Part shown: in pieces, positions 30,172 through 54,249 of the stretch | Position numbering within the stretch: the first letter of the stretch is position 1 | Layout: each line of letters opens with the position of its first letter | Assembly: GCA_016748015.1 (NCBI GenBank) | Contig: JAAOMT010000607.1 | Coordinates: forward strand, 740,013-804,012 | Length of the DNA: 64,000 bases | Origin: Geosiphon pyriformis | Lineage: Eukaryota > Glomeromycota > Glomeromycetes > Archaeosporales > Geosiphonaceae | Direction of reading: 5' to 3' | Program-made: the position numbers and the translations under genes | The notes under the pieces: generated by a model | Databases searched by the model: none | What the model saw: only the letters and a program-made list of their open reading frames with translations | What the model was told of the DNA's origin: nothing

Positions 30172-31115
30172 TGTTACTTAAAGAAAGAAAGCTGATCAAA
30201 GAAAGAAGGAAAAATGTGATCTAAAAAAATATGACAAAATATGAAAAAACACAGAATAATATGCAATAATATTAGATAATACATTATAACATAGGATAAC
30301 ATGTTATAATACAAGATAACACAGAATAATGTATTATAATATAGAATAACATATTATAATGCAAGATAACACAGAATAACGTGTAATAATATTAGATAAC
30401 ATATTATAACATAGGATAATTAGCTATAACATAAAAAAACGAAGTAATAGCTAGCAAGAACAGACAATTCAAAACAATTCTGTAAAACTAGAAAATATGT
30501 ATATATAGCAATAGCATTAAAAGCAGAAAAAAGAGAATTCCTAGACAGAAATTCATTAATTATCATTCCTAATTAGAAACATATTATTCCAAAATATCAA
30601 TAAATATACTTATTCAGCATCTTAAATCTAATTGCTCACTATCAGCTCTAAATGTTGATAGTAATTAATACTTAAATTACATGAGAACAATAGCTCTTAT
30701 TCACAGCTATTAATGTGATATTAACTTGCATTGTTTTGGCTTAATTTTTTTTATTTATTTTTTTATTTTGTTGTATCTTATTGGTGGTTTACTAAACTTT
30801 TAAGGATTAAGCACTGAGTTATTGACGTCAAAAATTGCCTGGTAAAAGATCTCTGCAAGTGGATAAAATGTGTAAGAATTATAGATTGCTTATCAGAGAA
30901 TTGCTGGCCACCAAGCTGAGAAAAAAATTGACAAAATTGTGATTCTGAGAAGCTACAGATAAAATAACATAGAAATTTCTGTCTATTATACAAAAGATTT
31001 AATCAAAAATCTTTAGAACACAAAAATCTTCAGATTACTACCATCCTATATCCATTGAGCACCAAGTTACAGATTTGTTATTTACTCCAACTATCTGAAA
31101 TAATCATCTGTAATA
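30172..31115 (+). repeat. E1 5' LTR (944 bp)
   Basis: It runs from TGTTACTTAAAG to CATCTGTAATA, where the terminal TAACA has changed to TAATA. The first 300 bases contain repeated ATAACACAGAATAAT-type units, then a TATATATAG box near 30500. Its 3' part (CACCAAGTTACAGATTTGTTA onward) matches family-B LTRs, whereas the 5' part matches the E5 LTR. Confidence 0.85.
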
Positions 31116-31177: not shown

Positions 31178-33190
31178 GTGGCAGAATCAGAAATAATAAA
31201 AACAAATCATTTAGAATTTGTCAAATCCTTATTTCAGCAGTACCAGCCAACAATTGGGCTTAACCAACAATTATTATCCAGTAAAATCAGTTTTCAACTT
31301 TTACATCAACAAAAGAATCACAGATTTTTTAAAAAGACCAGTTGATATTAAATTAGCAAGAGAAAATTTCTATACAAAATTAATTTAACATACCAGTTTA
31401 CCACAAAATCACAGTTTTGCACCAATCATCAGAGAAATCAATCAAAAATTGAAAGATATACTCAACAACAATTCTCCATTACTTATGCAAATAAGAGTAA
31501 AGGAAAATTACAAACACCAGCAGCAACCCCAAAAGAAATACAATTACCAATGTGGAAGAAACAAAGAATTAAATCTCCACTATATCTATTATATTATCAC
31601 ATATCCAGAAATATCATTAATATTACATTAGCAGATGCATCCATATTGAATGCAACATCAATATTTAGATAATTTCTATTTCAAAGTAAACAAAAAAAAG
31701 CAGAATTATTAGGAACATATGGTGATTATTTTGAAAAATTTAAATCATGATTACCAATACCATCTGGATTTCAATTATCACTGCTTCAACCAGATTTCAG
31801 GACTGTAAGTCTCTGGGAAATAACAGAATCAAAAGAAAAAAAAAATAACAATTAAGAATTCTATTACCATAACCTAATAGTAGAAAACCCAGAAGTTAAA
31901 ACTCCAAAGATTCAAACTCAGAAAAATCAATGCCATTCAAACTCTGATTTTATTAATTAGCAAAACTTACCTTTAGTAATTGTGATCAATCAACCACCAA
32001 TTGACCTAATTGCTGAGCCAATACAGCAACAGCCACCAATACTACTTCAACAACCACCAGTACAACAGCAACAACCAATTATGCCAATTGCATACACACC
32101 TATCACCAAGCTTGAAAAGTTCACTGGCAAAAAAGATAATATGTAAGTGTGGCTAAATAATATAGAAAAAGCCATTGCAGCCAATAGATGAAATAATGTC
32201 AGAGCCATGCAAACCATTTCATATTTTCTCCAAGATACTATCAACTCATGGTATCAAAGCTTGATTAACAAATCCCAAGATTTTAATGCATTTAATCTTG
32301 AGTTCCTGCAATATTTTAGCAATAATAACAGCATTAACTGTTTAGCCAATATCTTTACTACTATTAAGCAAAAAAAAACTGAAGCAGTTACTACTTATTT
32401 GGGACACTTTCACAGAAATTTGTGCCAAATTTAAGCAATACAAGCTAATTATTTCACTACATCACAAATCTTGAATTAATTCATTAGAGGCCTGCACAGT
32501 AGCATTCTCTAATATGTATGCCCATTATATTTAGCAGGCCTTTAAGCTGCAGTTACTTATACCAGAGATTTTGAAACTGCAAAATTAGAAGCCAACCATA
32601 TCCAAATTGTAAATCTAGTAATAAACAGATCATCTGACTTGGATTCCAAATTGAAACAATTCAGTGATTCAATTAATCAGAAATTAGAGGAATATTTATC
32701 TAACAACAATCAGTTTATTTATCAACTCCCACAACATCACGACAACTCAGAAAACTCCAGTCAGCCTTAAAATCATATGTATTCACAATCATCAGTCAAT
32801 CAACTATAACAACAGAAGACATGTATGTATTATAATTACAGTAAACAAGGTTATCTTAAAGCTAACTGCAGGGCATATTGCAATCAACCATGATTGGAGA
32901 ATCAATATTGAAACCCCAATCACTGATTTTAAACTCCAAACCACTACTTAAATTAAGATTATTATCAATCATATTACACTCAAGTAACACAGCAACCAAT
33001 CTACCAAACCCCAATTTATCAGATTCCAGCACCAGTTATCTACCAACCACAGCCACAAGTGATATATCAACCTTAACAAATTCAAACTCTACCACAAAAT
33101 CTAACCCAGATGTTACCCAGAAACCAAAGACCAAAAATTATTTAGCAAAACTAAAAATCAGCAATGATTGTTCATCAACCAATCCCCAGT
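31178..33190 (+). pseudogene. E1 gag (decayed)
   Basis: The frame opens at a GTG (AAAAGTGGCAGAATC) with no ATG nearby and reads AESEIIKTNHLEFVKSLFQQ. The capsid-like retrotrans_gag domain lies at about 32100-32620: KLEKFTGKKDNM, then TISYFLQDTINSWYQSLI, FLQYFSNNNSINCLANIF and TTYLGHFHRNL. A knuckle-like tail at about 32820-32880 (CMYYNYSKQGYLKANC) has lost one Cys and the His (both Tyr). Multiple stops break it. Gag would form the virus-like particle. Confidence 0.8.
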
Positions 33191-33389
33191 TCATCTAACT
33201 ATGCCTTAAGATCACATCCCAAAAATTTGGGAAATGGGTACAACCAAAATTCGAGTTCCCAAAACTATCTAAGTCTTCTGGTTACCCCAGAAAACATCTC
33301 AACCAACAACTTAGAAATCTCCCTAAAGCAAACAATTAACAACAACATACCTCCAGCCACTGTCACCAATGACAAATTATTAGCAGCTA

Positions 33390-33790
33390 TTTTTCCTTTC
33401 AAAATCAAAAAACCAACCAAAACTCCTCTTTTTAGTGGAACCACTCTCAATATGAAATTCATTACTGCCATATACACTGATGTCAAGATTGATGGGCAGA
33501 TCATCAAACTGATCCTAAACAGTGGTTCAGCAGACAGCATTATCACATGACAACTCATAAACCAATTAAGTTGCCAAGTTGATCGTGCTGTCAGTGCCAG
33601 AATTATTACTGCTGATGGAGCCACTAAAACTCCAATTGGCAAAATTGACAATTTTCCCATCAAAGTCAATAGTATCATTGTACTAATCAAGATTTTAGTT
33701 ATGGAAGCCACCTAGTACCAAGCTTTTATTGATAATGACTAGTTGTCTAAAACCAACACAGTACTTGACTGGACTATATAAGAGCTCCAG
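33390..33790 (+). pseudogene. E1 aspartic protease (inactive)
   Basis: A retropepsin fold: FITAIYTDVKIDGQIIKLIL, then NSGSADSIIT in place of DSG, then IITADGATKTPIGKIDNF and LVMEAT. The catalytic Asp codon is AAC (33518-33520), a G-to-A change from GAC. E2 keeps DSG at the same place. It would cleave the polyprotein. Confidence 0.8.
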
Positions 33791-35755
33791 CTCAGCCAAC
33801 ACAGTTATTACATACAAGTACCAGTAATCTATGGACATTTCAAGCCAATTATTACACAACCACTAATTGAATTTGAAAAAAAAAAGGGAAAACCTACTTG
33901 AAAAGCCTACCAAGTCTTGTGGGCTGATGAAAACCACAATGAATTGCTGCTCATACCTTTTTGAAACAAAGAAAAAGAAATAGAAATAGAAAATGACTTA
34001 CTACAAGTGAACACTTTTACTCATACTCCATACACCACCACCACACAAGACCAGTTAAACTACTGTTGACCAAAGCTAATATGCATTAACTGTAACAAAA
34101 AATTGTCATCAATAGGCACATGTTGTGGCAATAATAAAGAATGGCCAATGGCAACAAAGTTTTATTGTTATTTCTATGTCCTTAAATAATTTAAACAACC
34201 AAAGAGACAAGAAAAATGGGACAATAAACTATGTATGGCTTGTAGAGAGATTCTGTTGGATAAAGGAATATGGAATAACATCTCTGGATAAGGAGAAACT
34301 TGTAATAAATTGTGCCAATACACAATTCTAATTAGTGACTGGATAAGAAAAAAAACTCCCATAAACGCTGCCTGATGACAAGCAGTTAAATGTCTAAATG
34401 GTTGTTCACATGATGACAATAAAATTTGGTATATGGTGTTACTCATAGAAATATAGGAAATATATTAGCATAATTATTAGCCAATCAGAAGTAAGCATAG
34501 TAAATGTGGAATTCCAGGATTCCAGGAATTTCAGGATTCCTCAATGAGAAATTGCAGAATTCCAGAATTCCAGGATTCCTGTTGTGAAGAATCGAGGAAT
34601 TGAGGAATCTCAATTATGTATATATAGTAATAGTATTAGAAACAGAAAAAACAGAATTGATACCACAGAATTCTTAGCCTAGAAACAAAAATCATCAAAT
34701 AAATAATTATTTCATATCTCAATCTACTCTTTACTATTAACACTTCATGTTGATAATAAGTGATACTTAACTACACTGGAACAATAGCTCTTGATCATGG
34801 CTATTAACAAAATACTAATCTGTAAATTGCCTTGGCTTATTTCTTTTCTTTCTTTATTTTTCTTTATTTTATTTTGATTTATTATTGTGCACTAACCCAT
34901 TGATTGAAAAGCACTGATTACTGACATCAAAGATTGCCTGGTAAAAGACCCCTGCAAGAGGGTAGGACACGTACAGAAAATACAGATTACTTACCAGAAG
35001 ATTGCCAGCCACCAAGCCAAGAAAAGAATTGACAGACTTGCAAGTTTGAGAAGCTACGGATAAAACAACTATTGAATCTCTGTCTATTATACAAAAGACT
35101 CCATCAAAATCTTCAGATACAATGCTCGCAGAACCTCATCAATGGAAGTAGCTTCACAAGCACCAAGTTACAGGTTTGTTATTTACTTCAACAGCAGAAA
35201 TAATCCCCTGTAACAATGGTTCTTACCAAAATCAAAGAAATGTCATCAAAAGAAATAAGAATAATTAAAAACAACTCACCAGAACCTATAAAACTTAATT
35301 GGGGCCCAAATTCAGATATTGTCTTAGACCCTATAAACTCAGAACAATTCCATGAACATTACCAAAAATTAGCATCTACAAGGGAAAAACAAAAACAACA
35401 TTTAGAGCAGTTGAACACTCAACTGTGTCAACATTGCTTGATTTTATGTGACTTTTAATATTATAATAAGTGTAATCTTACTTACAATCCACCACCACAC
35501 ATAATCTACATAATCCTATAAGAGAAAAAACCAATCAGCAGCTGTGCATCTAAATCAGAATCAATGTTCAATTCCAATTCAAACTTTGACAACAATGATG
35601 ACAATAACAATAGTTCCAGCTCCGTCTAATATGGCAACCAAACTAATAACAATTCAAACTCCGATTCAAACCCCAAACAATACATTGCATTCTCAGATTT
35701 TTTTAAGGAACAGGAACTTAAATGGTTTAGTGATAATAATAAAGGTATTATGCCA
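33791..35755 (+). pseudogene. E1 Cys-rich region between protease and dUTPase (split by a solo LTR)
   Basis: This coding stretch separates PR and dUTPase and has no name I know. Visible are CYFYVLK, DNKLCMACREILLDKG, TCNKLCQYTILIS (CX3C) and, after the solo LTR (34437-35215), MVLTKIKEMSSKEI and QLNTQLCQHCLILCDF, followed by a Ser/Asn/Asp-rich acidic spacer. The equivalent part of E2 has CYFCKAYY, LCLTCEDML and CNQTCQY, so paired CXXC motifs are shared. A zinc-binding role is inferred only from the cysteine pairs. Removing the LTR and one ATGG copy restores the frame NKIWYMVLTK. Confidence 0.7.
34437..35215 (+). repeat. Solo LTR, family B, in E1
   Basis: It runs from TGTTACTCATAGAAATATAG to CCCCTGTAACA and is flanked by perfect 4-bp target duplications ATGG (34433-34436 and 35216-35219). 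Near its 5' end it carries GGAATTCCAG-like short tandem repeats (about 34507-34610). Confidence 0.9.
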
Positions 35756-35765
35756 GAATGCACAC

Positions 35766-36402
35766 ATAATATCAATGCAGGGTTTAATCTGAGATATTCA
35801 GGAAAAAAAGCCATCAACTTAGAACCACATTCACACACTTGCATTAATCTTAAAATAGCACTAGAAATTCTAACAACCACCATGGTTCAATTAGCATCTA
35901 GGAGTAGTTTAGTGAAAAAAGAAATCAATATACAAAGAGAAATAATTAATACAGAATATATATGAAATATTATTGCAATACTACAAAATAACTCAGAAAA
36001 GACTTACATCATAAAACCAAATAAAAAGATGACACAGACAATATTTCTGCCTCTGATTAAAGTAGCTCAGTTAGTTTCAGTGGAAAATAGAAAAAAATTA
36101 GGAATTACAGCAAGAGAGATAAGTGGATTTGGATCCATGAATAAAATAAATATACCAGTCAATATGACAGAAGAAGAAATTGTTAACAAGAGGGAAATTA
36201 TCTCCATCTATCAACCAATTTCTATTCTACTATATGACCAATACATATTAACAATAGAAAAGAAAGTAAGAAATCAAGCCCAGATTTTTAAAACAGAGCC
36301 AACTATTTGTAAATCAGAAGAAATTGGACTTACTAATCTCTATATACCAGTCAAGAACTATCATTATATCAAAATTTCTATCTACAACATAACTGGAAAC
36401 GT
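35766..36402 (+). pseudogene. E1 dUTPase domain (inactive), frame continues after E2
   Basis: The five motifs of trimeric dUTPases appear in order: 1 AGFNLRYSGK (family AGxDLR), 2 ASRSSLVKKEI, 3 IINTEYI followed by a TGA, 4 KKMTQTIFLP (family KIAQ), and 5 ISGFGSMNK (family GxGSTG). The catalytic Asp of motif 3 is AAT (35948-35950), and the Gly after it is TGA (35963-35965). A tail of about 90 residues follows (LTNLYIPVKNYHYIKISIYN) and is cut by E2 in NV/VEIPRR. The family hydrolyses dUTP to dUMP and limits uracil in DNA. Here it is part of the element polyprotein, not a host gene. Confidence 0.85.
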
Positions 36403-38396
36403 TATTACCAGTAGAATTTTAGCTAGTAATTAGCATAAAATTATTCTTATAATTTTTATTATTAATTAGCATATTATTATCATTTCAATTATTACTTATT
36501 ATTTAATCAAATTATCAAATATCATTACTCAATCAATAATCCGATTTGTATCATAAAAATTAAGATGATCAAATTACACAATATCTTGAACCATTATTAC
36601 AGGTGATTATTTGGGGTGTTGATGAATAACAAACCTGTAACTTGGTACTTAAGATGATTGGTGACAATAATAATCTGAAGGTATTTTATTTGAAGGTTTT
36701 CCAATTGAGTTCTTTGTATAATGGATAGAGATTCAATGGTAACAGTTTATCAGTAGTTTTCTGAAACCATAGTTTTGTCGATGGCTTGCTCAGCTTGATG
36801 GTTGATGATTCTCCTGGTATGATATCCTTCGTAAGTGTATACCAGTGCTGTTTCCTGACATCAGTTCCTCTGTAAGTCCTCCAAGAATAAGTATTGTTTA
36901 AGCAAGTTTATTTTTCCATAAGTCTTCCAAGAGTAAGTATTTTTCTAGTAAGCTTTATTTCTCTGTAAGTCCTCCAAGAGTAAATCCTTTAATCAAGTTA
37001 GTAGACAACAAAAAAAATAAAGAAAGATAAAAGAAAAAATAAGAAATAAGCCAAGGTGATTTGCAAGTTAGTATTCCGTCAATAGCCATGATCAAGAGCT
37101 ATTGTTTCAGTATGGTTAAGTATTAGTTACCATCAACATGAAGTGTTGATAGTGAAGAATGAATTTGATATAGTGAATAATTATTTATTTGAGGATTAGT
37201 AGTAACTAAGCTGAGAATTTTTGGTGTTGATTCTCTTTTTTTTTTAATTTTAATAATTATGATTTTGTGAGTCTAATTGATTCTATGAGTCTAATTGACT
37301 CTGTGAATCAATTGACTCTAAGTCCTATTGATTAATTTTCTAATTTTTGATATTACTGCTATATATACGTATTTGAAATTCCTCAATTCCTCAATTTTTC
37401 ATGTCAAGAATCCTGAAATTCTTGGAATTCTGCAATTTTTTTGAGAGGAATTCTGGAATTCTGGAATCCTGCAATTCCTTGTGTGAGAATCCTGCAATTC
37501 CTGGAATCCTGCAATTCCTCTGAAAGGAATTCTGGAATTCCACATTTACTATGTCTACCTATGATTGGCTAATTTATATGCTAATATACTTTCTATATTT
37601 TATGAGTAACACCATTTAATATAGTCAAAATTTGCTGAAATTAATGAAAATTGGCCGAAATAATTAATAGTTTAGTGAAATAACTTGTAGTTTGCTGAAA
37701 TGTATCTTTAGTTTACCAAAATTGTAACAAAAAGAAAAGTGCAAGTTCAAAAACTAGTACTACAACAAGTTGTATAAAAAAAAAGCTTCTCTCTTTAAGA
37801 AAATATATTTTTTCATAATATTTTATCATAGTATCCTACTTTAAATATCTTAAATTGAAACAAATTACCTTTTACACATCTCAAATAAAAATTAAAATAT
37901 TCAAAAACCAAATCTTTGAATTATTATACTTGAAATTTCCTTAACACAACTAACATTTTGAAATTGATTAGCTACCAATTTCAGTAATCTGTTAATAACT
38001 TCAGACCTAGATAAAAAATGTTTCTCTTGACAAAATTCTATTTCTTTTACATTTTTTTTATTTTTATTTTTATTTTCTTATTATAATCATTAAGGTAGCC
38101 TACAGATGAGATTCTTGTAGAAGAGTTGACTTTGACAGCAAAATAACTACACATTTTTAGTGAGCTTTCAGATGAGCAATTCCTGGGAAAAAGTTGATGT
38201 TTACTACAATATAATTACACAAAGTAACTGATATAAAATTGGCCATTCTATTTATAAGCCCAGCAGTTCAAATTATAAGAGATAATTTGAAAATAAATTC
38301 AGTTACTGAAGGTCCAACTACTTCCTGAGAATATGAATTCACAGCAAATTAACATTAACAACATTCAAGAAAAGAGACCAAAAATTTCTGGTAATA
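36403..38396 (+). repeat. E2 5' LTR (about 977 bp without the LTR inserted at 36595-37611)
   Basis: It starts TATTACCAGTAGAATTTTAG and ends CTGGTAATA, with TGTTACCAG...CTGGTAACA as the family-C termini seen intact at 61437-62451. The 3' LTR of E2 shows the uninterrupted join GAACCATTTAATATAG. Confidence 0.87.
36595..37611 (-). repeat. Solo LTR, family B, minus orientation, inside the E2 5' LTR
   Basis: On the plus strand it runs TATTACAGGTGATTATTTGG to TATGAGTAACA, 1017 bp, and is flanked by CCAT at 36591-36594 and 37612-37615. It carries the same GAATTC-rich repeats as other family-B LTRs. Confidence 0.9.
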
Positions 38397-38445
38397 TTTG
38401 GTGTTCTTCCATAGAAATAACACAGCAATAACAACTTCAAAGTGG
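38397..38445 (+). other. E2 primer-binding site and leader
   Basis: TTTGGTGTTCTTCCATAGAA follows the LTR and matches E4 at 62452. The leader is cut at AAAGTGG by the next solo LTR and resumes at 39425 with GTAGTGACTATACC. Confidence 0.75.
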
Positions 38446-39424
38446 TGTTACCAGACGAAATTAGAAATATTATTTAGCATAAAATTATTTTTATAATTCC
38501 TATCATTAATTAGCATATATTATCATTTTAAATTATCACTTATTACATTAGCAAAATATCCGAAATTATCATTTAATTAATAACCCAATTTGTACATAAC
38601 ACAAATGTACCCTAATTGCAATAATCAATTATGCAATACCCCAAAATATATAACATTCAAAAGTTCACCAAAATTTGTAGAAATTCACCAAAATAATTGA
38701 TAGTTCACCGAAATATCTAATAGTTTGCAGAAATAACTTGTAGTTCACCGAAATGTATCTTTAGTTTAGCAAAATTGTAGAAAAGAGCAAAGTTCAAGTT
38801 CATGGAATAGTGTTACAACAAGTTGTATAAAAAAAAAGCTTTTCTCTTCGAGAAAATATATCTTATTTTAGATTTATCACTTAGAACCATTCCTATACAC
38901 ACAAAAAGAAATAAATATTAAATAATTTAAAAAACCAAATTCTTTAATTATTGCACTTGGAAAATCCCCAAAACTCAACTAACATTTTGAAATTGATTAA
39001 CTACCAATTTCAGTAAACTGTTAGTGATTCCAGACCTGAATAGAAAATGTTCTCTTGATAAAAACCTATTTCTTTTACATTTCTTTCATTTTTATTTTTT
39101 TTTTCTTATTACAATTATTAAGGTAGCTTACAGACGAGATTCCTGTAAAAGAGTTGACTTTCACAGCAAAGTAACTACACATTTTTAGTAAGCTTCCAGA
39201 TGAGTAATTCCTAGGAAAGAGTTGACATTTACTACAACGTAACTACACAAGTAACTGGCATAGAATTGGCCATTCCACTTATAAGCCCAGCAGTTCAAAT
39301 TATAGGAGATAATTTGAAGATAAAATTCAGTTATCGGAGGTTTAAACACTTTTTATAGTCGTGAATTAACAGCATTACAACAAACATACAAGAGCTAAGA
39401 AGAGACCAAAAATCTCTAGTAACA
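38446..39424 (+). repeat. Solo LTR, family C, in the E2 leader
   Basis: It runs from TGTTACCAG to TAGTAACA, 979 bp, flanked by GTGG (38442-38445) and GTAG (39425-39428), a one-transition 4-bp duplication. The intact leader of E4 shows the empty-site layout AAAGTGG directly followed by the gag codons. Confidence 0.85.
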
Positions 39425-39427
39425 GTA

Positions 39428-41130
39428 GTGACTATACCAGACACAACAACTCTAGAGTATTATCAGTCAATTTACACTTACTGCAAACAAAGATTCAACA
39501 TCCCAGACAGAATTAAAGTTGTCAAAAAATCAGTATACCAATACATTAAAAACTGCATCAACAATTATTTTTTTGGAAACTACAACATTTCAGAAGTTAG
39601 AAACAATCTTTACAATAATTTATTGCACTATTCACAACTGAAAACTGAAGACCTTAACAGTGAAACACTTGCCATCTACTTCCAAGAACTTAATTTTAGC
39701 ATTATTCAGTATTGTAAAAAAAAATATTCAGTACAGTCTAAATACTCTATTAACTTTGAATTAGAGACAGAAACAAGCAACAAAGGCAAACAAAAAATGA
39801 AACAATACTCAAAAACCACTCCAAACACTCCAATACTACCAAAGACAATTGCCAAACACTTGCAAACACCTAAACAAGGAACCAGTATTAAATTACCACT
39901 TTCTATTACACTATTTCCAATTTTATTTGCTCGACCACAAACACCAAATTTACTACTTACCTATTTCTCCAAACCAGAAAATTTTCAGTTATCTAAAAAT
40001 CCTATTCAACAGCAGGAACCAATATCAACCAGCACCAATATTATTAATTACTTACAAGAAAATAAAAATAATTATTTAGAGAACTTAGAAAATAAAAAAC
40101 TGAATCAAAACAAAAAAAACCTACAAAGAACAAAAAAAAAATGGCAACTGCTTATATTACAAAAATCCCAGAATTTACTGGTAAAGATAATGATACTAGT
40201 CCTCAAAAATGGCTTAACAAAGTTCAAAAAGCAGGAGATACAAATGGTTGGAATGCAGCAAAAATGCTCAAAGCAATTCTATACTTTCTCTAAGGAATTG
40301 TAGGAGAATAGTTAAAAAACTTAGAAGAATCATTTGAAAACTGGCAAGCATTCAAAAATGCTTTCTTATAACAATTTACCAACAACAACACCTTTATCAC
40401 TCTTCACAATTGCTTTCACAATATCAAACAAGAAACCTTTAAAACTGTTATAACTTATCTTGGAAGATTTAACAAACTTCTTTAACAAATTTGACAATTA
40501 GAAACCAATGAATATTATTCCAATGTCCAGATTTTGGATCAGTTTATAGCAGGGTTAAAAAACAAGTTAATCAAGAAAGTTTACTCACATGTTCCAGAAA
40601 ACTTAGCAACAGCCATTAGACATGCAAAGAAATATAAAATGGCAATAGAAAAAGCAAACCACACCAAACTTGTAAATTTTGCTATTGGAAAAACCAGCTT
40701 AGCAGCTGAAGAGAAAATTGACCAACTTACAAAAAAAGTTGAAAACTATTTTACCAACCAACAATAATAGCAACAACCACAAAGATATTAGCCACCACAG
40801 TAATAAAACCAAAACAACTACTTATTACCAACAAACAGCCAAAACCAAAGTTGTTATTATTGTGAGATTCCAAGACATTGGAAACAAGATTGCAGAAAGC
40901 TACAAAGAGACCAACAAAACAGGAGTAATTAACATTACCCTTCAACACAGCAATTTCATTATCAGCCTCTACCACCAGCCTATTATTCCTTAAAACCACA
41001 ACAGCAAACCAATTACTATTAACTTGCTCCATAGTAACAATATTAACAATCTCTACCAACTCAACAGTATTAACAACCACCTACACAACAATATCAAATA
41101 CCAGCCCAAAAATTGGTTTAACATAACCAA
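39428..41130 (+). pseudogene. E2 gag (decayed)
   Basis: It begins GTGACTATACCAGAC without an ATG and reads TTLEYYQSIYTYCKQRFNIP and then a Gln/Pro/Ser-rich linker. A frameshift near the A-rich stretch at about 40130 precedes the capsid domain: TAYITKIPEFTGKDNDTSP, ENWQAFKNAFL, VITYLGRFNKLL and ILDQFIAGLKNKLIKK. The knuckle CYYCEIPRHWKQDC (CX2CX4HX4C) lies at about 40851-40895. Stops occur at several Trp or Gln positions. Its nearest relative here is E4 gag. Confidence 0.82.
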
Positions 41131-41418
41131 TTCACACCACAAAATTAATTTCAGAATAATAACAACAGAATCAATTCAAACAACCAATTGGTTCTCCAAA
41201 ATTATGGTTAGCAAAAACCCAATTACTACTATATTCAATCCAGTTATCTCACAATGCCTGAAAAATCGAATTTTTAACAAACTGTACTTTTTGAAAGTAA
41301 AGTTGCAGTACCAAAATCAAACCCTTCTAACAATACTATTTTACCAGCTTAAATTGCTCAAAATGCCAACTTCTCAAATATATTTCCATTTAAATTTGAA
41401 GCCAATAAATCACCATTC

Positions 41419-41736
41419 TTGCTTAGCAATGCAGCAGTCAATGAACAAAAAGCAATCACTGCTATATATATTAAAGCTAAGGTAGAAAAAAAACAAATCC
41501 ACTTAATTCTAGACAGTGGATCTGTTGGAAGCATTATTACTTACCAACTGATACAACAGCTTGGAAAAAATGTTGACAGATTAGTCCAAACTGTTATTTT
41601 TATAGCAAATGGGATAAAAAAGACATTAGTAGGAGAAATTGACAATTTTTTATTCACCATTGATGGAATCATCATTCCAGTTAAAGTTTTAGTCATGGAT
41701 GTACCACAATACCAAGCTCTTGTCAGAAATAATTAG
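41419..41736 (+). CDS. E2 aspartic protease domain (active-site DSG kept)
   Basis: KKQIHLILDSGSVGSIITYQ carries the retropepsin DSG. Then come VIFIANGIKKTLVGEIDNF and VLVMDVPQYQALVRNN before a TAG. This is one fragment of the gag-pol frame, open for 105 codons, not a gene with its own start. It would process the polyprotein. Confidence 0.82.
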   Translation: MLSNAAVNEQKAITAIYIKAKVEKKQIHLILDSGSVGSIITYQLIQQLGKNVDRLVQTVIFIANGIKKTLVGEIDNFLFTIDGIIIPVKVLVMDVPQYQALVRNN

Positions 41737-41778
41737 CTTCTCAAGGCCAATGCAAATTTAGATTGAAAAACCCAAGAA

Positions 41779-42815
41779 TTGAAGATTTCATACCAAGAAC
41801 AATACACCAAAGTACCTGTCATCTATAATACTTTTAATAAGAAATTTGAAAAAGCTCTAGTATTCGAATTTGAAAAGAAAAAAGAATTACCAATTATTGA
41901 AACCTTTATGGCTTTTGAATCACCATTCAATTGGGCTGAAGAAACAGAACAAAAAATCTTTGAAGAGACCAGAAGATGGAATGTAGTTAGATATTCCATA
42001 CCAGAACCACAAAAACAACTACCTTATATTCCACTTAAATACAAAGATTGTAAAAAAAAACTTTCATTAATGAGAGCATATATTTTTCCAAAAGAGGAAT
42101 ATGAAACTCCTACCTGTTATTTTTGCAAAGCATACTATAGAGAACGATTTAGATATTTCAAAAGAAGTGAAAAATAAGACAACACTCTTTGTCTTACATG
42201 TGAAGATATGCTATTAGAAGAATACAACTGGATTAATGTTGCAATGAAAGGAGGAGTATGTAATCAAACCTGCCAATATGCCTTATCAATTTCGGAAAAA
42301 GTCAGAAGAAGAATACTTTTTGATGCAGCATACAACAGTGCTTTTAACAAACTCTACTACTACTCTTATGATGCTGAAATAATCTTTGATCTAGCAATGG
42401 CTTTAATTAATAGAGCCATACAGAAAGATATCTACCAAATGAAAAAAGTTGAGTACATTGAATACACAATAGAATTAGCTGAATTCAATTATAAAGATGA
42501 AGTAGAAACATACTACCAAATTGCAAGTCACACTTATCTAACCCAAGAAGCTCAAATTTAACAATTAGAGCAAATGAACATTCAATTGTGTAAGGAATAC
42601 ATCATGCCATGTAATGACAAATGGTGTTCAGAATGCTATGCTTTTAGCATCTCCTTGCCCAGCAAAGATGACCAGGAGAAAATTGAGTTTGGAGAACATA
42701 AGTCAGAAGAAAGAATTACAACAACACCAATCTATCTTACTGAAAACCAGTCTGCTATACAACTCAAATATTTTAACAACAATAAAAAAGGAATAAAACC
42801 AGAAAAAGCCTACGA
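41779..42815 (+). pseudogene. E2 Cys-rich region upstream of the dUTPase
   Basis: Three consecutive open pieces form this region: FMAFESPFNWAEETEQKIFE with CYFCKAYY, a TAA, then LCLTCEDML and GGVCNQTCQYALSISEKV with an alpha-helical, Tyr-rich stretch FNKLYYYSYDAEIIFDLAMA, then LCKEYIMPCNDKWCSEC. The cysteine pairs recur in E1. I recognise no family. It lies in frame ahead of the dUTPase, so it is probably part of the same polyprotein. Confidence 0.7.
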
Positions 42816-43517
42816 AATTGATGCAGAATATGATCTAAGATATCTTGGCAAAAATACTTTGGTTTTTTAACCAAAATTCTTAATCAAAATCAACCTTAGA
42901 ATTGCTCTTGAAATACCACCAAGAGCAATAGTACAAATTGTTTCTCAATCATCATTGGCAAGCAAAAAAATCAATGTTAGAGGAGAAGTTATAGATACAG
43001 AATATACTGAAAATATTATCATCATGTTACAGAATGAAACAGACAAACCATTTAGGATTGAACATGCTGAAAAAATTGCCCAAGCAATTTACTTACTCTT
43101 AATCAACATTTTGGGTTTACAATCAGTTAACAATAGAGAACAATTGGAAAAAAGTGAAAGAGAAACTCAAGGTTTTGGTTTAATTGGACAATTTACAGTT
43201 TTAGTAAATATAGCTTTTAATGTACAAAATAAATTTCACCAGATTCTTCAACTTCCCCAACCAATTACCATTTCACTTTTTGGAGAACATAACGAAATTT
43301 ACACTTGCTCAAAACCCACCACTACTCAACAAATCTTTGAATTTAATGAACAAATCTGTTCAAAGCATAAAATTTTAATCCCAAATGTTTATATTCCCAA
43401 AAGAATGAAAAAATTTCAAGTCACATTCTACAACCTTAATAATTACCTTATTGTTTTATTGAATAAATTAAAGATTGGAATCATACACAGTAACATTTTC
43501 CAAGATAAAAACTCTTA
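42816..43517 (+). pseudogene. E2 dUTPase domain (catalytic residues kept, one stop)
   Basis: Trimeric dUTPase motifs: 1 AEYDLRYLGK, 2 SQSSLASKKINVRG, 3 EVIDTEYTENI, 4 AEKIAQAI and 5 TQGFGLIGQF (family GxGSTG). The motif 1 and motif 3 aspartates are present, unlike E1. One TAA at 42868-42870, between motifs 1 and 2, breaks the frame. About 110 residues follow motif 5 (IPNVYIPKRMKKFQVTFYNL), equivalent to the E1 tail. The frame resumes after E3 into the RT with YYLLEEKL. The reaction would be dUTP to dUMP plus pyrophosphate. Confidence 0.87.
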
Positions 43518-43599
43518 AATTGTCTCTAATTTCATTGGAATTATGAGACATATTCTACTTCTTAACCCAAACATTATCTCTACTACTGAAAGCTACTAC

Positions 43600-44531
43600 T
43601 GTTACAGATAATTATTTGGAGTTTCAAATCAAATAACAAATCCATAACTTGGTGCTCAATTGATAAGGTGGTTGGTAATACCTGAAGGTGTTGTTTTATC
43701 TGAAGGTTTTATTATAGAGTTCTTTGTATAATGGACAGAAATTCAATAGTTGTCTTTCCAGTCACCTCCTAGAATTGCAATTCTGTCGAATTTTTTTCTC
43801 AGTGTGGTGGCCAGTAATCTTGGCAGAGATGCCCTTCTGGTAAGCTATTCTTAAATTTTCAATTCTTATATCTTTTTTTTGGGGTTTTTTATCAAGTTAT
43901 CCATGACATTAATAACTCAGTGCTTAATCTTCAAGTAATTAGTAAAACAAAGAAATAATAAAAAATAAAAAAAATAAGCCAAGACAATAAATATTAGTAT
44001 TCCATCAATAGCTGTGATCAAGAACTATTGTTCTAGTGTGATTAAGTATCAATTACTATCAACATAAAGTGTTGATAGTAGAGAGTAGAATTAAGATAGA
44101 GAATAATTATTTATTGATATTTGTGAATTGGAAGGTCACTTAAATGAAATATAAACTGAGAAGTCTCTAACTAAAAGATTCTGTTTTGTAATTTTAAATA
44201 ATTATGATTTGCAAGTCTAATTGATTCTATGAGTCTAATTGATTTCACGAATCAATTAACTCTGAGTTCCATTGATTAATTTTCTAACTTCTGATACTAC
44301 TGCTATATATATGTATTTGAGATTCCTCAATTCCTCAATTTTTTATGTCAGAAATCCTAGAATTCCTAGAATTCTGCAATTCCTTTGAGAGGAATCCTGG
44401 AATTTTGGAATCCTGTGATTTCTCTTATGAGAATTCTGCAATTCCTGGAATTCTGGATTCCATATTTATTATGTCTACCTATAATTGGCTAATTTATATG
44501 CTAATATACTTCTTATATTTTATAAGTAATA
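43600..44531 (-). repeat. E3 3' LTR
   Basis: Plus-strand ends are TGTTACAGATAATTATTTGG and TTTTATAAGTAATA, with the terminal GTAACA mutated to GTAATA. Confidence 0.88.
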
Positions 44532-44749
44532 TTATTCTCTCCTTTAATATTGAGCTCTTGTGAAATCTTCTAAATTTTTCTTTGTATCAATTTTGTTGCT
44601 GTAATTTCTATTGCTATTTTTTTTTTTTTTTTTTTTTAAATCTAATTTTTATACGTAACTAGGATTTTTAATTATAATGGTCTGTTCAGAATATCTAAGT
44701 TCAAATCTTGTATTTGTATTATGTGCATGTTCAGACATAATGTTCTTAT

Positions 44750-46855
44750 TATTATCACTGAATTGAGTTAATTCCTGCTCTATTATAAGATCTAGAAGTA
44801 TGATATATTGTTTAATGTTTAAAGCAGAGTTTGAATTTGTTGTTGACAGAGTTTAAATCATCATTGTCATTAGCAAAGTTTGAATTGTTATTGTCATTAG
44901 TGGAGTTTGAATTGGAATTAAGTTCCAATTTTGATTTCCATTTGTTCTTGCTAATTGGCTCTTCTTTAAATATATAATACATGAGAGTAGATTGTAATTC
45001 AGGGCTGTCAAAAGAGTTTTAATGATTTGTTAATTGATTTTTGTACTGCTGATTCTCAAATTCCTTTTTCTTTTCTAAGTTTTTTTCATATTGACACTTT
45101 CCCAATGCTGACTTTTGGCACAGAAGAAGGCAGTTTTCATATAAGTAAGTATGAATCTGAGTAGTTTTTTCTGGAATTCTTCCAATGAATCTTTAAATAA
45201 TCGGAGTTTTGAATTTTTAGAGATTTGACAGGTTTTATCTAAGGTAAGTTTTCTTGTCTAATAGCAGGGTTAGACTTATTGGGTTTCTAATGTTTGGGTT
45301 TTAAATGATCAAGTTGAAGTTTTAACTTTTAACAAGTTTTACTAAAGGTAAGTTTTTTTCTATACTAGTGGGGTTAAAATTTATTGGGTTTCAAATGTTC
45401 AGGTTTTAAACTATCAGGTCTTGAAGAATCGGAGTTTTAACAAGTTCTATCAAAAGTAAGTTTCTTTATATAATAGTGGGGTTGGAATTATTAAGTTTCA
45501 AATAATTTTCAGAGTTTTTAATTTAATAAGTTTATCAAAGGTAAGTTCTTTATATGATAACAGGGTTGAGATTATTGGGTTTTGAATAAACAAAGTTTTA
45601 ATTTAACGAGTTTTTTTTTTAATGAGTTTATCAATGGTAATTTTCGAATGTTCAGAGTTTTAATAATCAGGTTTTGAATGATCGGAGTTTCAATTTAATG
45701 AGTTTTTTAAAGATAATAGTAAAAATAAGGATTTTGCAAATTCTAAGTGATTTTCTCTTGTTTTCTTTTGGTCTGCCATTTTTCTGCATGGTTGTTGCTC
45801 ATTATTATCACTGAATTAAGTTAATTTCTGCTCTATTATAAGATCTAAAAGCATGATATATTGTTTGGTGTTTGAAGTGGAGTTTGAATTTATTGTTGAT
45901 GGAGTTTAAATTGTTATTGTTATTAGCAAAGTTTGAATCATTGTCATTATCAGTAGAGTTTAAATTGGGATTAAGTTCCAATTCCGATTTCTATTTGTTC
46001 TTGCTGATTGGCTCTTCTTTGAATATATGATACATGGGAATGAATTGTGACTTAAGGCCATTAGGTAAGTTTTGATGATTTGTTGATCGATTTTGGTACT
46101 ACTGATTCTTAAATTTCTTTTTTTTCTCAAAGTCTTTTTCATATTGACACTTTCTCAATGCTGACTTTTGGCACAGAAAAAGGCAGTCTTTGCACAAGTA
46201 AGTATGAATCTGAGTAGTTTTTTCTGGAATTCTTCCAATGAGTCTTTAAATAATTGGAGTTTTGAATTTCTAAAGATTTGATGGGTTTTATCTGAGGTAA
46301 GTTTCCTTGTCCAATAGCAAGATTAGACTTATTGGGTTTTTAATGTTCAAGTTTTAAATGATCGAGTTGGAGTTTTAACTTTTAATAAGTTTTACCAAAG
46401 GTAAGTTTCTTTTTATACTAGCAGAGTTGGAATTTATCAAGTTTTAAATATTCGGGTTTTGAACTATCGGGTCTTGAAGAATTGGAGTTTTAACAAGTTT
46501 TATCAAAAATAAGTTTCTTTATACAATAGCAGAGTTAGAATTATCAGGTTTTAAATAATTTTTGGAGTTTTTAATTTAACAAGTTTATTGAAGGTAAGTT
46601 TTTTATACAATAGCAGAGTTGAGATTATTGGGTTTCGAATAAACGGAGTTTTAATCTAATAAGTTTTTTTTTAACAAGTTTATCAACAGTAATTTTCAAA
46701 TGTTCGGGGTTTTAATGATTGGGTTTTAAATGATCAAAGATTCAATTTAACAAGTTTTTTAAAGGTAATGGTAAAAATAAGGATTTCACGAATCTTAAGT
46801 GATTTTCTCTTGTTTTCTCTTGGTCTGCCACTTTCCTGTATGGTTGTTGCTGGTG
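44750..46855 (-). repeat. Tandem duplication of about 1.05 kb in E3
   Basis: Plus-strand ATTATCACTGAATTGAGTTA at 44751 recurs at 45805 as ATTATCACTGAATTAAGTTA, and similarity continues through GCTGACTTTTGGCACAGAA, TTCTTCCAATGA and GGTAAGTTT segments up to the gag-start block GGTCTGCCA (45770 and 46822). The offset is 1052-1054 bp. On the minus strand each unit begins with a gag start (VADQEKT or MADQKKT) and reaches an acidic Asn-rich spacer like that before the E1 dUTPase. Confidence 0.85.
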
Positions 46856-46895
46856 CTAGTTTTCTGTTGGATTATACTTCACAGGGAGCATCAAA

Positions 46896-47844
46896 TGTTA
46901 CAGATGATTATTTGGGGTCTCAAATCAAATAACAAACTCATAACTTGGTGCTTAATTGATAGGGTGGTTAGTAATATCTGAAGATATTGTTTTATCTGAA
47001 GATTTTGTTATGAAGTCCTTTGTATAATAGACAGAGATTCAATGGTTGTCTTTTCAGTCACCTTCTGGAATTGCAATTCCATTAAATTTTTTTCTCAGCA
47101 TAATGACTGGTAATCTTGGCAGAAATGCCCTTTTGGTAAGCTATTCTTAAATTCTCAATTCCTATACCCTTCCTTTGGGGTCTTTTACCAGGCTATTTAT
47201 GACTTCAATAACTCAGTGCTTAATCTTCAAGTAATTAGTAAAACAAAGAAATAATAGAAAATAACAGAAAATAAAAGAGATAAGTCAAGGCAATAAATAT
47301 TAGTATCTTATCAATAGCCATGATCAAGAGCTATTGTTCTAGTGTGATTAAGTATTAATTACTATCAACATAAAGTGTTAATAGTAGAGAGTGGAATTAA
47401 GATAGAGAATAATTATTTATTAATATTTGTGGATTGGAAGGTTGTTTAGATGAAATCTAAACTGGGAAGTTTCTAACTAAAGAATTCTATTTTGTAATTT
47501 TAATAATTATAATTTGCAAGTCTAATTAATTCTATGAGTCTAATTGACTCTGCAAATCAATTGACTCTAAGTTCTATTGACTAATTTTCTAACTTCTGAT
47601 ACTACTGCTATATATACATATTTAAGATTTCTCAATTCCTCAATTCTTTATGTTAGGAATCCTGGAATTCCTGGAATTCTGTAATTCTTTTAAGAGGAAT
47701 CCTGGAATTCTGGAAATCCTGTGATTCCTCTTATGAGAATTCTGCAATTCCTCTGAGAGGAATTCTGGAATTCCACATTTACTACATCTACCTATGATTA
47801 GCTAATTTATATGCTAATATACTTCTTATATTTTATGAGTAACA
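46896..47844 (-). repeat. E3 5' LTR
   Basis: Plus-strand ends are TGTTACAGATGATTATTTGG and TTTTATGAGTAACA. It is followed on the minus strand by the primer-binding site at 46895-46869. Confidence 0.88.
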
Positions 47845-47849
47845 CCACC

Positions 47850-48800
47850 TGTTGGAAGAAAAACTTTCTTGAATTAATATAAGTCTCTTAGAACCTTAAC
47901 AACAAAAACAATTGAAACAGCTAATAGCTGAATTTGCAAATATATTTGCAAAAGACAACAATAATCTTGGAAAAACTAATATTGTCCAACATCAGATCCA
48001 TACAGGAGATGCTCTATCAAAATGACAACAAGCCTATTAAGTTCTATCTACTAGCCACCAATTTATCAAAAAAGAGGTCCAAAAAATGCTCAATAACAGA
48101 TTGATTTAATCATCAAAAAGTCCTTGGGTCTCATCAGTGGTTCTTGTTAAAAAGAAAAATAGAAAAATCAGATTCTGTGTAGATTATTGTTAGCTCAACA
48201 GTATAACAATTGAAGATGCATACCTTCTTCTCAAAATTAATGACATATTAGATGCTTTAGGAAAAGCCAAGTTCTTTTCAACTTTAGAATTGGAAAATAA
48301 ATACTGGCAAGTCGAAATGGATCCAAAAGATCGACCAAAAACAGCATTTACCACCCAAAAAAGAAACTATGAGTTCAATGTCATGTTTTTTGAACTCTGT
48401 AATACACCAGCAACATTTCAGCGACTCATAAATGTTGTATATAAAAAACTCTTGTGGTAATGAGTAGTTGTTTATCTGGATGACACTAATATATATTCAC
48501 TAAGCTTTAAAGCCCATTTTATTTACCTGTAAGAAGTTTTTCAATGATTATGGAAAGCAGAATTAAAGTTGAACATTAAGAAATATTACTTTAGAAAAAC
48601 AAACTTAATCTTTTTTGGACATATAGTTAACAAAGACAGAGTCAAACCAAATCCTGAAACAATTAGTGTTGTCAAAAACTTTCAAACTTCCAAAAATACT
48701 ACAGAGCTACAAGGATTTATGGAATTAGTCTCTTACTATTGAAAGTTTATTAAAAAATTCTCAGAAATTGCCAAACCACTCAATTATCTCACCAATAAAA
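47850..48800 (+). pseudogene. E2 reverse transcriptase
   Basis: It resumes the dUTPase frame after E3: LIAEFANIFAKD, IVQHQIHTGDAL, VQKMLNNRLI, SPWVSSVVLVKKKN, FSTLELENKYWQVEMDP (motif A), FFELCNTPATFQRLI, then YLDD at 48473-48484, FFGHIVNKDRVKPNP and LQGFMELVSYY. This is the Ty3/gypsy RT layout. Stops at former Trp and Gln codons make it a pseudogene, but YLDD is intact. It would copy the element RNA inside the particle. Confidence 0.87.
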
Positions 48801-49290
48801 ATGTGCCATATCAATGGACTGAAGAACAACAGAAAGCCTTTGACACCTTCAAAACAAAGTTAACAACAGCTTTAGTTCTTGCTTATCCAAACTTCAACAA
48901 ACAGTTCCAACTAGCCACTGATGCTTCACATATAGCTTTTGGTGTTATTTTATTACAATTGAATAAAAATGGCCAGGAGCTAGTCATTGCCTATGTCAGT
49001 AGAACACTCAAGCCAACAGAACTTAAATATAACTCAACTGAATTAGAAGCTACTGCAGTCATTTGGACTCTTAAACATTTTCAACAATATCTGAAAAATA
49101 GAAAAAAATTTGACATCATAACTGATAATATTGGCCTTAAATGACTTAACAAAAAAAAAACTGAACAAAATACCAAACAGTCTTGATGGAATGATTTCCT
49201 AACAGACTACAAATATATTGTATACCACAAACCAGAAAAACTACACATCAATGTTAACAGTTTCTCAAGAATAAGACAAAATTAACACCA
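48801..49290 (+). CDS. E2 RNase H domain
   Basis: An open frame of 113 codons: PYQWTEEQQKAFDTFKTKL, then FQLATDASHIAFGVILLQ with the first Asp, LKYNSTELEATAVIWTLKHF with the Glu, and FDIITDNIGLK with the next Asp. It ends at TGA (49142), after which KPEKLHINVNSFSRI continues in the family pattern. It is an internal piece of pol that degrades the RNA strand, without its own start. Confidence 0.82.
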
Positions 49291-49529
49291 ACAGCAATCC
49301 CATTACAACTACTAACCTATTAACAAGACTAACCAAACAACAATAGATCCCAAAAATTACAACAATCTTAAAAACTATTTAGAGACTCTTACCATGCCAG
49401 AAAATTGGTTTCCAAGTAAAAAACATCGATTATAATACCAATTAAAACAATATTTCATACATTACAACAAAATCTATTACAAAAATCGCAAAAATCTAAA
49501 CCAATCACTCAGATTAGTACAAGAAAGTG

Positions 49530-50690
49530 AAAAAAAAACAATTTTATACAACATGCACACAGATTTTTCTTTAGCATACTTGGAAAGAGATGGAACAATT
49601 TAAAAAACTCTTGAACATTACTTTTGGTTTCACATGCAAAAAAACATTTGACAATATGTAGAATCTTGTAATAGTTGTTAAAGAAAAAAAGAATTCACCC
49701 AACAAAATTTTTAAATCCAATCAAAGTTAAACAACCTTTTGACAGAGTTGGAATTGATTTAGTCAGACCATTATCTATTACAATTCAAGAAAATTGTCAT
49801 ATTGTAGTTGTAGTAGATTATCTTATCAAATGGCCTGAAGCTAGAGCCATCCAAAAAGCAGATGCAAAATCAGTAGCAAATTTCATCTATGAAGACATTA
49901 TTTGTAAACATAGATACTCAATTGAACTTTTATTTGATCAAGAAATTTGTAAATGATACAATGTTAAAAGACCTCTATTATCATTTTATCACTCTCAAAC
50001 AAATAGACTTGTAGAACATTTCAACAGAACATTGTGTGAATTTTTAGCCAAAGTCTCAACAGATTTTGAGCAGAAATGAGATATATTTATTACATCAATA
50101 TTATTAGCTTACAGAACACTAAAACAAGATACTATGAAACACACACTATTTGATCTTACTTATGGAAAGACAGTAATATTATCAATTAATTTCACAGTAA
50201 AAACATATCCAGTACAACCAATCAATAAAAAAAATTTTCAAGAAACACTCCAAAGAAAAGCTTATACTTTTCTTAGTACACTGGAAGGAAAAAAATGGAT
50301 AGCAGCAACTCATATTGAACACTCTTAAGCTCAACAAATTACCACTAGTTACCAATGAATTTAAAATTGGAAATAAAGTTCTCTTATACAAAACTAAGGC
50401 TAAAAAACAATGGAGTAGAAAATTTGAAAACAAATGGGATAGACCATTTTATATCCACGAAATTCTAGGCAATGGATCATACAAGTTAAAATTTAATAAC
50501 AAAATACTAGCAAAAGTTGCATATAGAGATTAATTAAAACACTATTATTTCAAAAACAATCCTGAACCATTAATTTCACAAATTGGTACACATTCCCTTT
50601 TAGTTAATTCTGAAGATATTCTTCGAAATTTAGAACCAATAGTTATAATAAAACAACAACCAAACTTGAACACTTAATTTAACATTTTTC
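49530..50690 (+). pseudogene. E2 integrase
   Basis: The HHCC zinc part is read from MHTDFSLAYLERDGTI and LEHYFWFHMQKNI with YVESCNSC. The core has FDRVGIDLVRPL (first Asp), IELLFDQEICK (second Asp), and NRLVEHFNRTL (Glu). A TGA at about 49954 and others break it. The C-terminal part, FKIGNKVLLYKTKAKKQWS and FYIHEILGNGSYKL, is the usual gypsy tail. It inserts the cDNA; the 4-bp duplications in this window would be its product. Confidence 0.83.
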
Positions 50691-50989
50691 ACAATAACTC
50701 TTTTAAATACACAAAACATAAAACAAAAATAGTAAATAATTACAAAAAACATTCAAACCCAAAAACAAATAAAAAACCCTATATCCAAAATAATTTTCAT
50801 TATTTTTTTAGTTAGTCATTTTTTTTATCATGATTATTTTCCAAAATATCCAACAAATATTCCAAAAATTAATGTTAGCTTTAAAAACACTTCCTAACTT
50901 ATTTATAATGATTAATAGAAGTTAAATTAATTACATTTAGAAAGAAACCACAGTCCCAATAGTAAATAATTCTCAGAATTATTATCTCT

Positions 50990-51539
50990 ATAGAAGAAAA
51001 ACAAAAAGTTACTCTGGAAATCAATTACCAAAACTTTTGAAACAAGCACTAAAAAAAAATCTTTTATTTGCCCCTATTAACATTTCACCAAATGCCACAA
51101 TTTAACAAAAACTTCTACTATTTCTTAATGAACAGAACAATGAACATACCCTTATCTATAAATATTTTCATATTGGAAAAACACTTTATGAATGAAAACT
51201 GGAACTTGAAACAACCAACATCACTTCTAAAGCTATACAAAAACAAATTCACAATAAATTCAAGACAGCAGCTGGACTAATAAACACTCACTACAAATTT
51301 AGAGCAGCATTTAAACTCTATAATTTATTTAACACTTGTGAAAACGTCCTACAAAATCTAATATTTCATCCAATGAAGATTCAATACATTGGAAAGCTTA
51401 CAAAACTGAAATTTCAACAATTTTCAGACCAAATTACTTCAATTATTTTGGGCTACTATCTTAACATTACAGATAGTACTTGGACTTTGATAAAGTTCAG
51501 TTTTGAGGAGAAAATTATGTTACCAGTAGAATTTTAGCT
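50990..51539 (+). pseudogene. E2 3' accessory ORF between integrase and LTR
   Basis: One frame reads TLIYKYFHIGKTLYE, a TGA, then LELETTNITSKAIQKQIHNK, INTHYKFRAAFKLYNLF and QFSDQITSIILGYYLNI, ending in the LTR at 51538. I do not recognise it. No transmembrane segment suggests an envelope. It lies where extra ORFs of gypsy elements usually sit. Confidence 0.5.
51503..51518 (+). other. E2 polypurine tract
   Basis: TTGAGGAGAAAATTA directly before TGTTACCAG. It resembles the E1 tract (AAAAAAAGAGAAGATAA at 56302-56318) and that of E3. Confidence 0.65.
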
Positions 51540-53640: not shown

Positions 53641-54080
53641 AAAAGCTTATCTAAGCACCAGTATTGATCTATCTAAATCACAGCAAATTATTCATCATCA
53701 CTACTGATGCATCAAGTCAAACATTGAGAGCTGTACTATCTCAGAGAGGACTGGATAGAAGAGAACACCCAGTAGTATACACTAATCACAGTTTGAGTTC
53801 AGCTGAAAAAAAATATGAAACACCAGCATTAGAACACTTAGCTATCTATTGAACAATCATTAAATGGAAGAAATACTTAAACCAGAAATTCGAGGTGTAT
53901 ACTGATTACAAAGGATTGACATCAATCCAAAAGCAAAAATTCAGAGATGATTGCCACATAAGATAAAAAATAGCACTTTTATTATATACTTATACTATAC
54001 ATTATAAAAAAGGAAAAAAACACAGAAATGCTGATGGTTTGTCATGAATGAAACATATCTAAAAACATTTTAAACCCAAA
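53641..54080 (+). pseudogene. E1 RNase H
   Basis: LFIITTDASSQTLRAVLSQR (first Asp), EKKYETPALEHLAIY (Glu), KFEVYTDYKGLTSI (Asp) and HRNADGLS. A short open frame covers 53664-53852. Confidence 0.8.
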
Positions 54081-54249
54081 AAAATATAATAAAAAGATGA
54101 ATACACAAAAATACCAACAACTTTAACATTATATAAATACTAAACAGTTTAAGAAGAAATTATCTCAAAAAAAACAAAACAACATAAAACAACAATCAAA
54201 ATATTTTATCACCTATCACAATCTATTTTATCAAAAGAACCAAAAGAAT

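Follow-up and report, generated by a model that had tools for sequence, protein, structure and literature searches.

A dUTPase domain between the protease (PR) and the reverse transcriptase (RT) has been described in several retroelements. The available portion of PMC2864245 describes Postia placenta elements carrying a dUTPase at three places, being between PR and RT in PosPlaTy3-5, and refers to previous examples from Phanerochaete and Tuber (Tmt1). The same PR-RT position is given for the bdelloid elements Juno, Vesta and TelKA in the accessible part of PMC5408684, where it is also stated for basidiomycetes, and for a planarian giant gypsy element in the excerpt of PMC6431247. In similarly partial texts, the betaretroviral dUTPase is called similar to that of fungal chromoviruses (PMC2774666), the mention of dUTPase is limited to human endogenous retrovirus L (HERV-L; PMC1142308) and PF00692 is reported as enriched along with retroelement domains in Entomophthora muscae (PMC11105155). 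The window analyzed here is the whole stretch of 64,000 nucleotides from Geosiphon pyriformis (contig JAAOMT010000607.1, positions 740,013 to 804,012), and contains two nested retroelements, E1 and E2, with a dUTPase at this same position.

These elements are probably degenerate copies from an old, highly abundant Ty3/gypsy lineage comprising PR, a Cys-rich segment (CYS), the dUTPase (DUT), a region of about 180 residues separating DUT from RT (POST), RT and RNase H, followed by integrase, in which the dUTPase would serve for uracil control (probability about 0.72). An earlier reading of the window, made from sequence only, had taken the PR-DUT-RT order as undescribed; since published accounts of it exist for Postia, bdelloid rotifers and a planarian, that novelty is refuted on the terms of the sequence-only reading itself, and the arrangement is a known one, that of dUTPase-carrying metavirids.

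The dUTPase domain in E1 and E2

The anatomy was obtained by comparison of the window with itself and by tblastn with the parts of L009, an unbroken relative from the G. pyriformis genome (124.7 Mb searched). E3 (43600-47842) is nested within E2 (36405-52496) and E2 within E1, whose long terminal repeats (LTRs) are at 30174-31113 and 56321-57262. All the parts of E1 and E2 described below, LTRs included, are on the plus strand.

The trimeric-type dUTPase proposed for both elements was recovered in each by a different route. The E2 domain (42790-43191; tblastn 45.5%; one stop, motifs I-III damaged) contains a stop-free piece, 42871-43515, matching the Pfam dUTPase family PF00692 with 47.6 bits (E 1.8e-12, cut-off 22), and the piece carrying motif I (42562-42867) matched no Pfam family. 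The E1 domain (35744-36145; one stop, catalytic motifs damaged) was identified by tblastn, 48.5% identical to L009 over 134 residues; its two stop-free pieces, with 16.6 and 13.0 bits, are both below the Pfam cut-off, so that the profile search gave a significant match in E2 only. Alignment to L009 places the five motifs in order in both copies, damaged in each: NAGFNL, SRSSLV, REIINTEYI*N, NKKMTQ and REISGFGSMN in E1; DAEYDL, SQSSLA, GEVIDTEYTEN, AEKIAQ and RETQGFGLIG in E2. The catalytic Asp of motif III is N in E1 and kept as D in E2. Solved dUTPase structures match the L009 domain with 64 bits or less, including 53-54 bits for the chains that we take to be those of equine infectious anaemia virus and feline immunodeficiency virus. 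The profile match, the five ordered motifs and the catalytic Asp assign the domain, as predicted from sequence, to the trimeric dUTPases.

The PR-DUT-RT order was sustained in both elements. Upstream are the proteases, at 33461-33787 in E1 (tblastn with L009 PR 55%, four stops; the stop-free piece 33155-33547 has no Pfam match) and at 41434-41781 in E2 (54%; Asp_protease_2 with 28.6 bits over 41353-41733). CYS follows at 33800-34429 plus 35225-35449 in E1 (34-35%), interrupted by LTR-like DNA (34430-35217, from LTR-like matches in the self-comparison), and at 41785-42636 in E2 (30%), where the pieces 41767-42174 and 42178-42558 belong to no Pfam family. Downstream are the RTs, at 52895-53449 in E1 (57%, eight stops; included in the RT tree) and at 48098-48655 in E2 (58%, six stops; grouping with L025 in the RT tree), and the RNase H domains, at 53589-54008 in E1 (39%) and 48803-49231 in E2 (45%; RT_RNaseH_2 with 120.6 bits over 48743-49141). 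Integrase pieces were identified in E1 at 54127-54861: Integrase_H2C2 with 63.3 bits (54127-54585) and rve with 22.0 bits (54664-54861), the latter below its cut-off.

The insertion point of E2 is inside the POST region of E1, with residues 6-79 at 36173-36394 and residues 83-180 at 52502-52792 (tblastn 36% for both), the protein alignment picking up again three residues later. The E1 dUTPase tail does run on once E2 is removed, as had been proposed; it continues into POST and only then into RT. The RT piece has its eight stops, and RNase H lies in another frame. E3 interrupts E2 ahead of the last part of its POST (47837-47995, residues 129-180, 42%), so the DUT-RT join of E2 is also broken. 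Both window copies are decayed and neither is intact. An exact target-site duplication was looked for in E1, E2 and E3 and none was found.

Copies across the Geosiphon genome

The closest named relatives of the element protein are G. pyriformis gene models (41 of 42). A loose first look gave 3181 candidate dUTPase loci, and all 150 that were scored exceeded the Pfam cut-off. The loci read were 27 distinct ones (L001-L028, L007 and L009 being the same place), eight picked by best score (L001-L008) and the others (L009-L028) by long open frames; because of this choice the fractions among them do not describe a random sample. PR-CYS-DUT is present in 27 of the 27, and in 19 an RT of the same strand lies downstream. 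Exceptions are L002, L008, L010, L016, L021 and L023, masked there, and L001 and L019, with no RT at the expected downstream place. The POST match of L001, L002 and L019 ends in each case at residue 123 of 180 without an RT match after it, L002 being masked further on; a shared deletion or insertion is perhaps the reason.

The genome contains many copies, of which some keep the domain in frame between PR and RT, as the sequence-only reading had expected. L009 contains PR, DUT, RT and RNase H within a single frame of 1307 amino acids, and L018 contains gag, PR and DUT within one of 1433; the gag scan, which covered L018 rather than the window copies, identified Retrotrans_gag and Ty3_capsid in that frame. 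Integrase domains were found downstream in pieces of L012, L015 and L017, as in E1. The best 80 genome matches to the DUT-to-RT piece are 77-100% identical, and seven of them are stop-free, two of these reaching only residues 1-508 and 1-457 of 541. Against solved structures, the RT-RNase H of L009 is closest to Ty3 chains (308 and 307 bits), followed by one match of 200 bits and the rest at 99 or less, which upholds the gypsy-type pol. With LTRs, the PR-RT-RNase H-integrase order, a Ty3-like RT and gag all present, the elements belong to Ty3/gypsy (Metaviridae).

CYS comprises about 330 residues (227-555 of the L009 frame) with several CxxC-like pairs, and matched no Pfam family in the window pieces or the L009 frame. 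Its AlphaFold model is weak (mean predicted local distance difference test score, pLDDT, 53.6), with one confident helical stretch, and no PDB structure was matched by Foldseek at E 0.001 or better. The POST model (mean pLDDT 48.6) is too weak for a fold search. Two candidates for POST were rejected, each with a probability of 1.3%: a second, degenerate dUTPase (by hhalign), and a homologue of the PR-RT linker in the dUTPase-less lineage described below.

Selection on the domain

Ratios of nonsynonymous to synonymous substitution (dN/dS) were calculated as pairwise medians by the Nei-Gojobori method, between L009-like copies and copies of less than 80% identity. The value is 0.27 for DUT (197 pairs), 0.13 for RT (18 pairs), 0.31 for RNase H (48 pairs) and 0.18 for PR (2 pairs; the divergent copies, compared among themselves, give 0.16 from 23 pairs). 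CYS has 0.34 (55 pairs, with L001, at 75%, as one of three divergent rows) and POST 0.57 (14 pairs, one divergent row). Among the L009-like copies themselves the ratios are 0.40-0.79, in line with decay after insertion. As judged from these comparisons, purifying selection preserved the dUTPase while the families diverged.

Such selection could also have acted on a structural or regulatory part, for particle assembly or as an RT cofactor, with no selection for dUTPase activity. dUTPases are generally known to have non-catalytic roles as well, and individual copies of these elements do lose catalytic motifs. However, the motif damage in single copies is of the kind produced by the C>T/G>A decay that follows insertion, and the catalytic Asp of motif III (VID) is kept in 19 of 20 L009-like rows, making a purely structural role quite improbable.

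Proposed uracil control and the dUTPase-less lineage

The likeliest role that we infer for the domain is uracil control during cDNA synthesis. The dUTPase would be packed with RT into the particle, where it would form trimers and hydrolyze dUTP; in hyphae where the host supplies little dUTPase, the cDNA would then contain little uracil, and would be less open to the uracil-DNA glycosylase of the host. As stated in the available part of PMC4531489, retroviral dUTPases matter mainly where cells do not divide and host dUTPase is low, and dUTPase loss in non-primate lentiviruses gives more G-to-A changes.

A host glycosylase of the UNG type was identified as four collinear pieces of TIGR00628 at C271:277442-278345 (60, 51.7, 40 and 17 bits), none of them reaching the cut-off for the whole protein, as expected for single exons. 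Because the host has this enzyme, uracil in cDNA could be attacked. A single 25-bit match to PF03167 lies in a multi-exon gene (L109, C282) whose GINPG motif, read by eye, suggests a TDG/MUG-like glycosylase. The exact pattern GQDPYH was not found in the genome.

A second gypsy lineage of this genome has no dUTPase. Among the best 150 RT loci of 6000 candidates, at least 43 have a dUTPase 0.6-2.2 kb upstream, a lower bound because the 309 dUTPase places used for this check are only some of the dUTPase loci. Of the other 107 RT loci the first 10 were read; three contain CYS, DUT and POST, and seven are without dUTPase, PR being 716-747 bases ahead of RT. The RT tree separates the Geosiphon rows into a group of 23 that carry a dUTPase (99/97) and a group of seven that lack it (100/100), with the metagenome proteins P0036 and P0052 outside both (92/82) and P0054 further out; the root is not fixed, and either a gain in the dUTPase lineage or a loss in the dUTPase-less one would account for these groups. 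The dUTPase-less loci (L100-L102 and L104-L107) are 94-95% alike in all pairs, star-like as in a burst, and their PR-RT linker has CxxC-like motifs of its own.

Uracil limitation, as already proposed by the sequence-only reading, is plausible and fits the purifying selection, and several points weigh against it. The dUTPase is not strictly needed, since the genome also harbors a gypsy lineage without it, with many copies (7 of 10 RT loci read). Private G>A changes are not significantly above C>T either with dUTPase (p 0.27) or without it (p 0.086), so no uracil-borne mutation trace separates the two lineages; decay after integration could mask a strand-bias signal. Finally, the choice of loci by best score or long frame favors well-kept copies and hence low dN/dS. 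Strand-biased hypermutation of cDNA, considered separately, was unsupported by the same comparison of G>A with C>T.

Origin of the element dUTPase

The host has a dUTPase gene of its own at C262 (L098), with five exons, GT-AG borders and all five motifs. A search with the yeast dUTPase gave element loci alone, a degenerate pattern gave no match, and the host exon came up with a shorter piece. This gene is 62% identical to the yeast dUTPase (3p48), 63% to 3so2 and 33% to the element dUTPase. The dUTPase tree comprises 38 rows, three of them cellular fungal sequences, and about 137 columns, few for deep branches. The host gene groups with 3p48 and 3so2 (100/98), and another clade of 20 rows (100/98) comprises the Geosiphon elements, Racocetra P0077, P0068, P0075 and the metagenome P0036 and P0052. 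A capture of the fungus's own gene through reverse-transcribed mRNA would explain an intronless domain in a host where such a gene exists; with an identity of 33% and a separate clade the element domain is not the host's gene, and this origin is highly improbable. Of the separate capture claimed by the sequence-only reading this much stands, that the domain is no copy of the host gene; the tree, having no Postia, Tuber, rotifer or retroviral rows, does not extend to the remainder.

The element clade adjoins the short dUTPases P0104, P0109 and P0119 (97/90). A 50-row tree without the host gene gives the same groups, the link to these three having 94/89 with the bootstrap not settled. Among the matches listed, the best phage match to P0109 is 46% identical, and the best to the element domain about 40%. 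On viral contigs, 67 loci match the query only within residues 219-416, the dUTPase part, and none in RT. A single capture in this lineage is likely from these data.

One ancient capture, predating the spread of the elements to fungi, rotifers and planarians, would make all PR-DUT-RT metavirids heirs of one dUTPase. It would fit the same PR-RT position in several phyla, as given in the partial sources cited above, and the single clade of the Geosiphon, Racocetra and P0036/P0052 dUTPases. Against this, the PR-DUT-RT protein P0054 is outside the element clade in both trees, although on a long branch and weakly placed; fungal elements seem, in the accessible text of PMC2864245, to have acquired the domain independently, from different sources and at varying positions; and the RT tree puts P0036/P0052 outside the Geosiphon elements with and without dUTPase, so that a loss or a second gain is needed under that rooting. 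Such a common inheritance is unlikely.

A fuller account is tentative, at somewhat less than even odds: the gypsy lineage of Glomeromycotina may have gained its dUTPase in one event, the donor being phage- or bacteria-like rather than the host, together with or before the Cys-rich segment; the domain would have been under selection since before the Geosiphon-Racocetra split, and would now be present in thousands of copies beside a dUTPase-less lineage, in a host with its own dUTPase and UNG. If true, this single non-host gain offers a ready natural experiment on the purpose of an element-borne dUTPase.

Decay of the copies

Private substitutions in the L009-like copies are C>T or G>A in 281 of 302 cases (150 and 131, respectively), and in the seven dUTPase-less loci in 230 of 249. 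The LTR pairs have transitions to transversions of 119:3 in E1, 69:0 and 13:0 in the pieces of E2, and 105:2 in E3. Every cytosine context is affected, without a preference for CpA. CpG is hit hardest, at 11 of 14 C sites and 16 of 21 G sites; the fraction for each of the remaining contexts is 0.28-0.38 (counted over invariant and one-row columns only). Cytosine methyltransferase domains are encoded in the genome (10 matches, several with internal stops). The TIGR00628 pieces led us to reject a missing uracil glycosylase as the source of the C>T decay. The pattern resembles repeat-induced point mutation (RIP) and may be due to RIP, to methylation decay or to a genome-wide bias, the comparison covering repeats only. 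So strong a C-to-T decay is of note, RIP signatures being reported, in the part of PMC8647823 available, as not detected in Gigaspora margarita or Mucoromycotina.

Other features of the window

The two LTRs of E1 are 86.6% identical. The E2 5' LTR (36405-36595 plus 37611-38384) is split by an LTR-like insert at about 36597-37610, and its parts are 93% and 90% identical to the 3' LTR (51518-52496, from self-matches). A second LTR copy at 38446-39424 adjoins the E2 5' LTR, before the coding part of E2; with 122:90 transitions to transversions against the E2 3' LTR, it is far older than the E2 5' LTR, which differs from that 3' LTR by transitions alone. E3, to which no strand is assigned, lies between the dUTPase and RT of E2 and has an LTR pair at 43600-44529 and 46896-47842 (86.8%). 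Its interior (44741-46851) is a tandem repeat with a unit of about 1060 bases, 85% alike; tblastn located pieces of the CYS end on the minus strand at 44962-45162 and 46015-46215, and the start of a dUTPase is seen at 44649-44852, judged by eye only.

Comparison with known systems

No earlier description for Rhizophagus retrotransposons or Geosiphon was found in the literature searched, which covered few subscription journals. PosPlaTy3-5, compared by description only, is likewise a fungal Ty3/gypsy element with the dUTPase between PR and RT. It differs in its basidiomycete host, and PMC2864245, in its available part, deals with chromodomain-bearing elements and mentions neither a Cys-rich segment nor POST. 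In ten integrase-side pieces from Geosiphon, many of them short and with other loci masked, no chromodomain family was identified at E 0.05, and SH3_Tf2-1 was under its cut-off in two of the ten. According to the partial texts, Juno carries an additional zinc knuckle between the dUTPase and RT, whereas the Geosiphon Cys-rich segment precedes the dUTPase; Juno, Vesta and TelKA differ further in their rotifer hosts, their retrovirus-like nature and their additional open reading frames, and the planarian element in being giant with many extra domains.

P0036, P0052 and P0054 share with the Geosiphon lineage PR, dUTPase, RT and RNase H in one protein. The dUTPases of P0036 and P0052 are sister to the glomeromycotan clade, but their PR-DUT spacer is short and no POST-like stretch is present in the alignment; in P0054 the place of CYS is taken by another Cys-rich stretch, and the dUTPase is outside the clade. 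Two fragments come from other glomeromycotan fungi: Racocetra fulgida P0077, with a dUTPase 52% identical and of the same clade and the CYS end before it, and Ambispora gerdemannii P0160, with a dUTPase start (63%, covering 34% of the query) adjoining a piece of RT; at E 0.01 or better, RVT_1 is the only Pfam match of P0160.

The presence of a dUTPase in some retroelements still awaits an explanation, and a single genome here has thousands of candidate dUTPase loci. With dUTPase and dUTPase-less lineages, a host dUTPase and UNG together, the uracil hypothesis becomes testable by comparison of lineages. The dUTPase-carrying metavirids are extended here to a further host group, Glomeromycotina; the CYS segment, the large number of copies and the dUTPase clade likewise add to the known systems.

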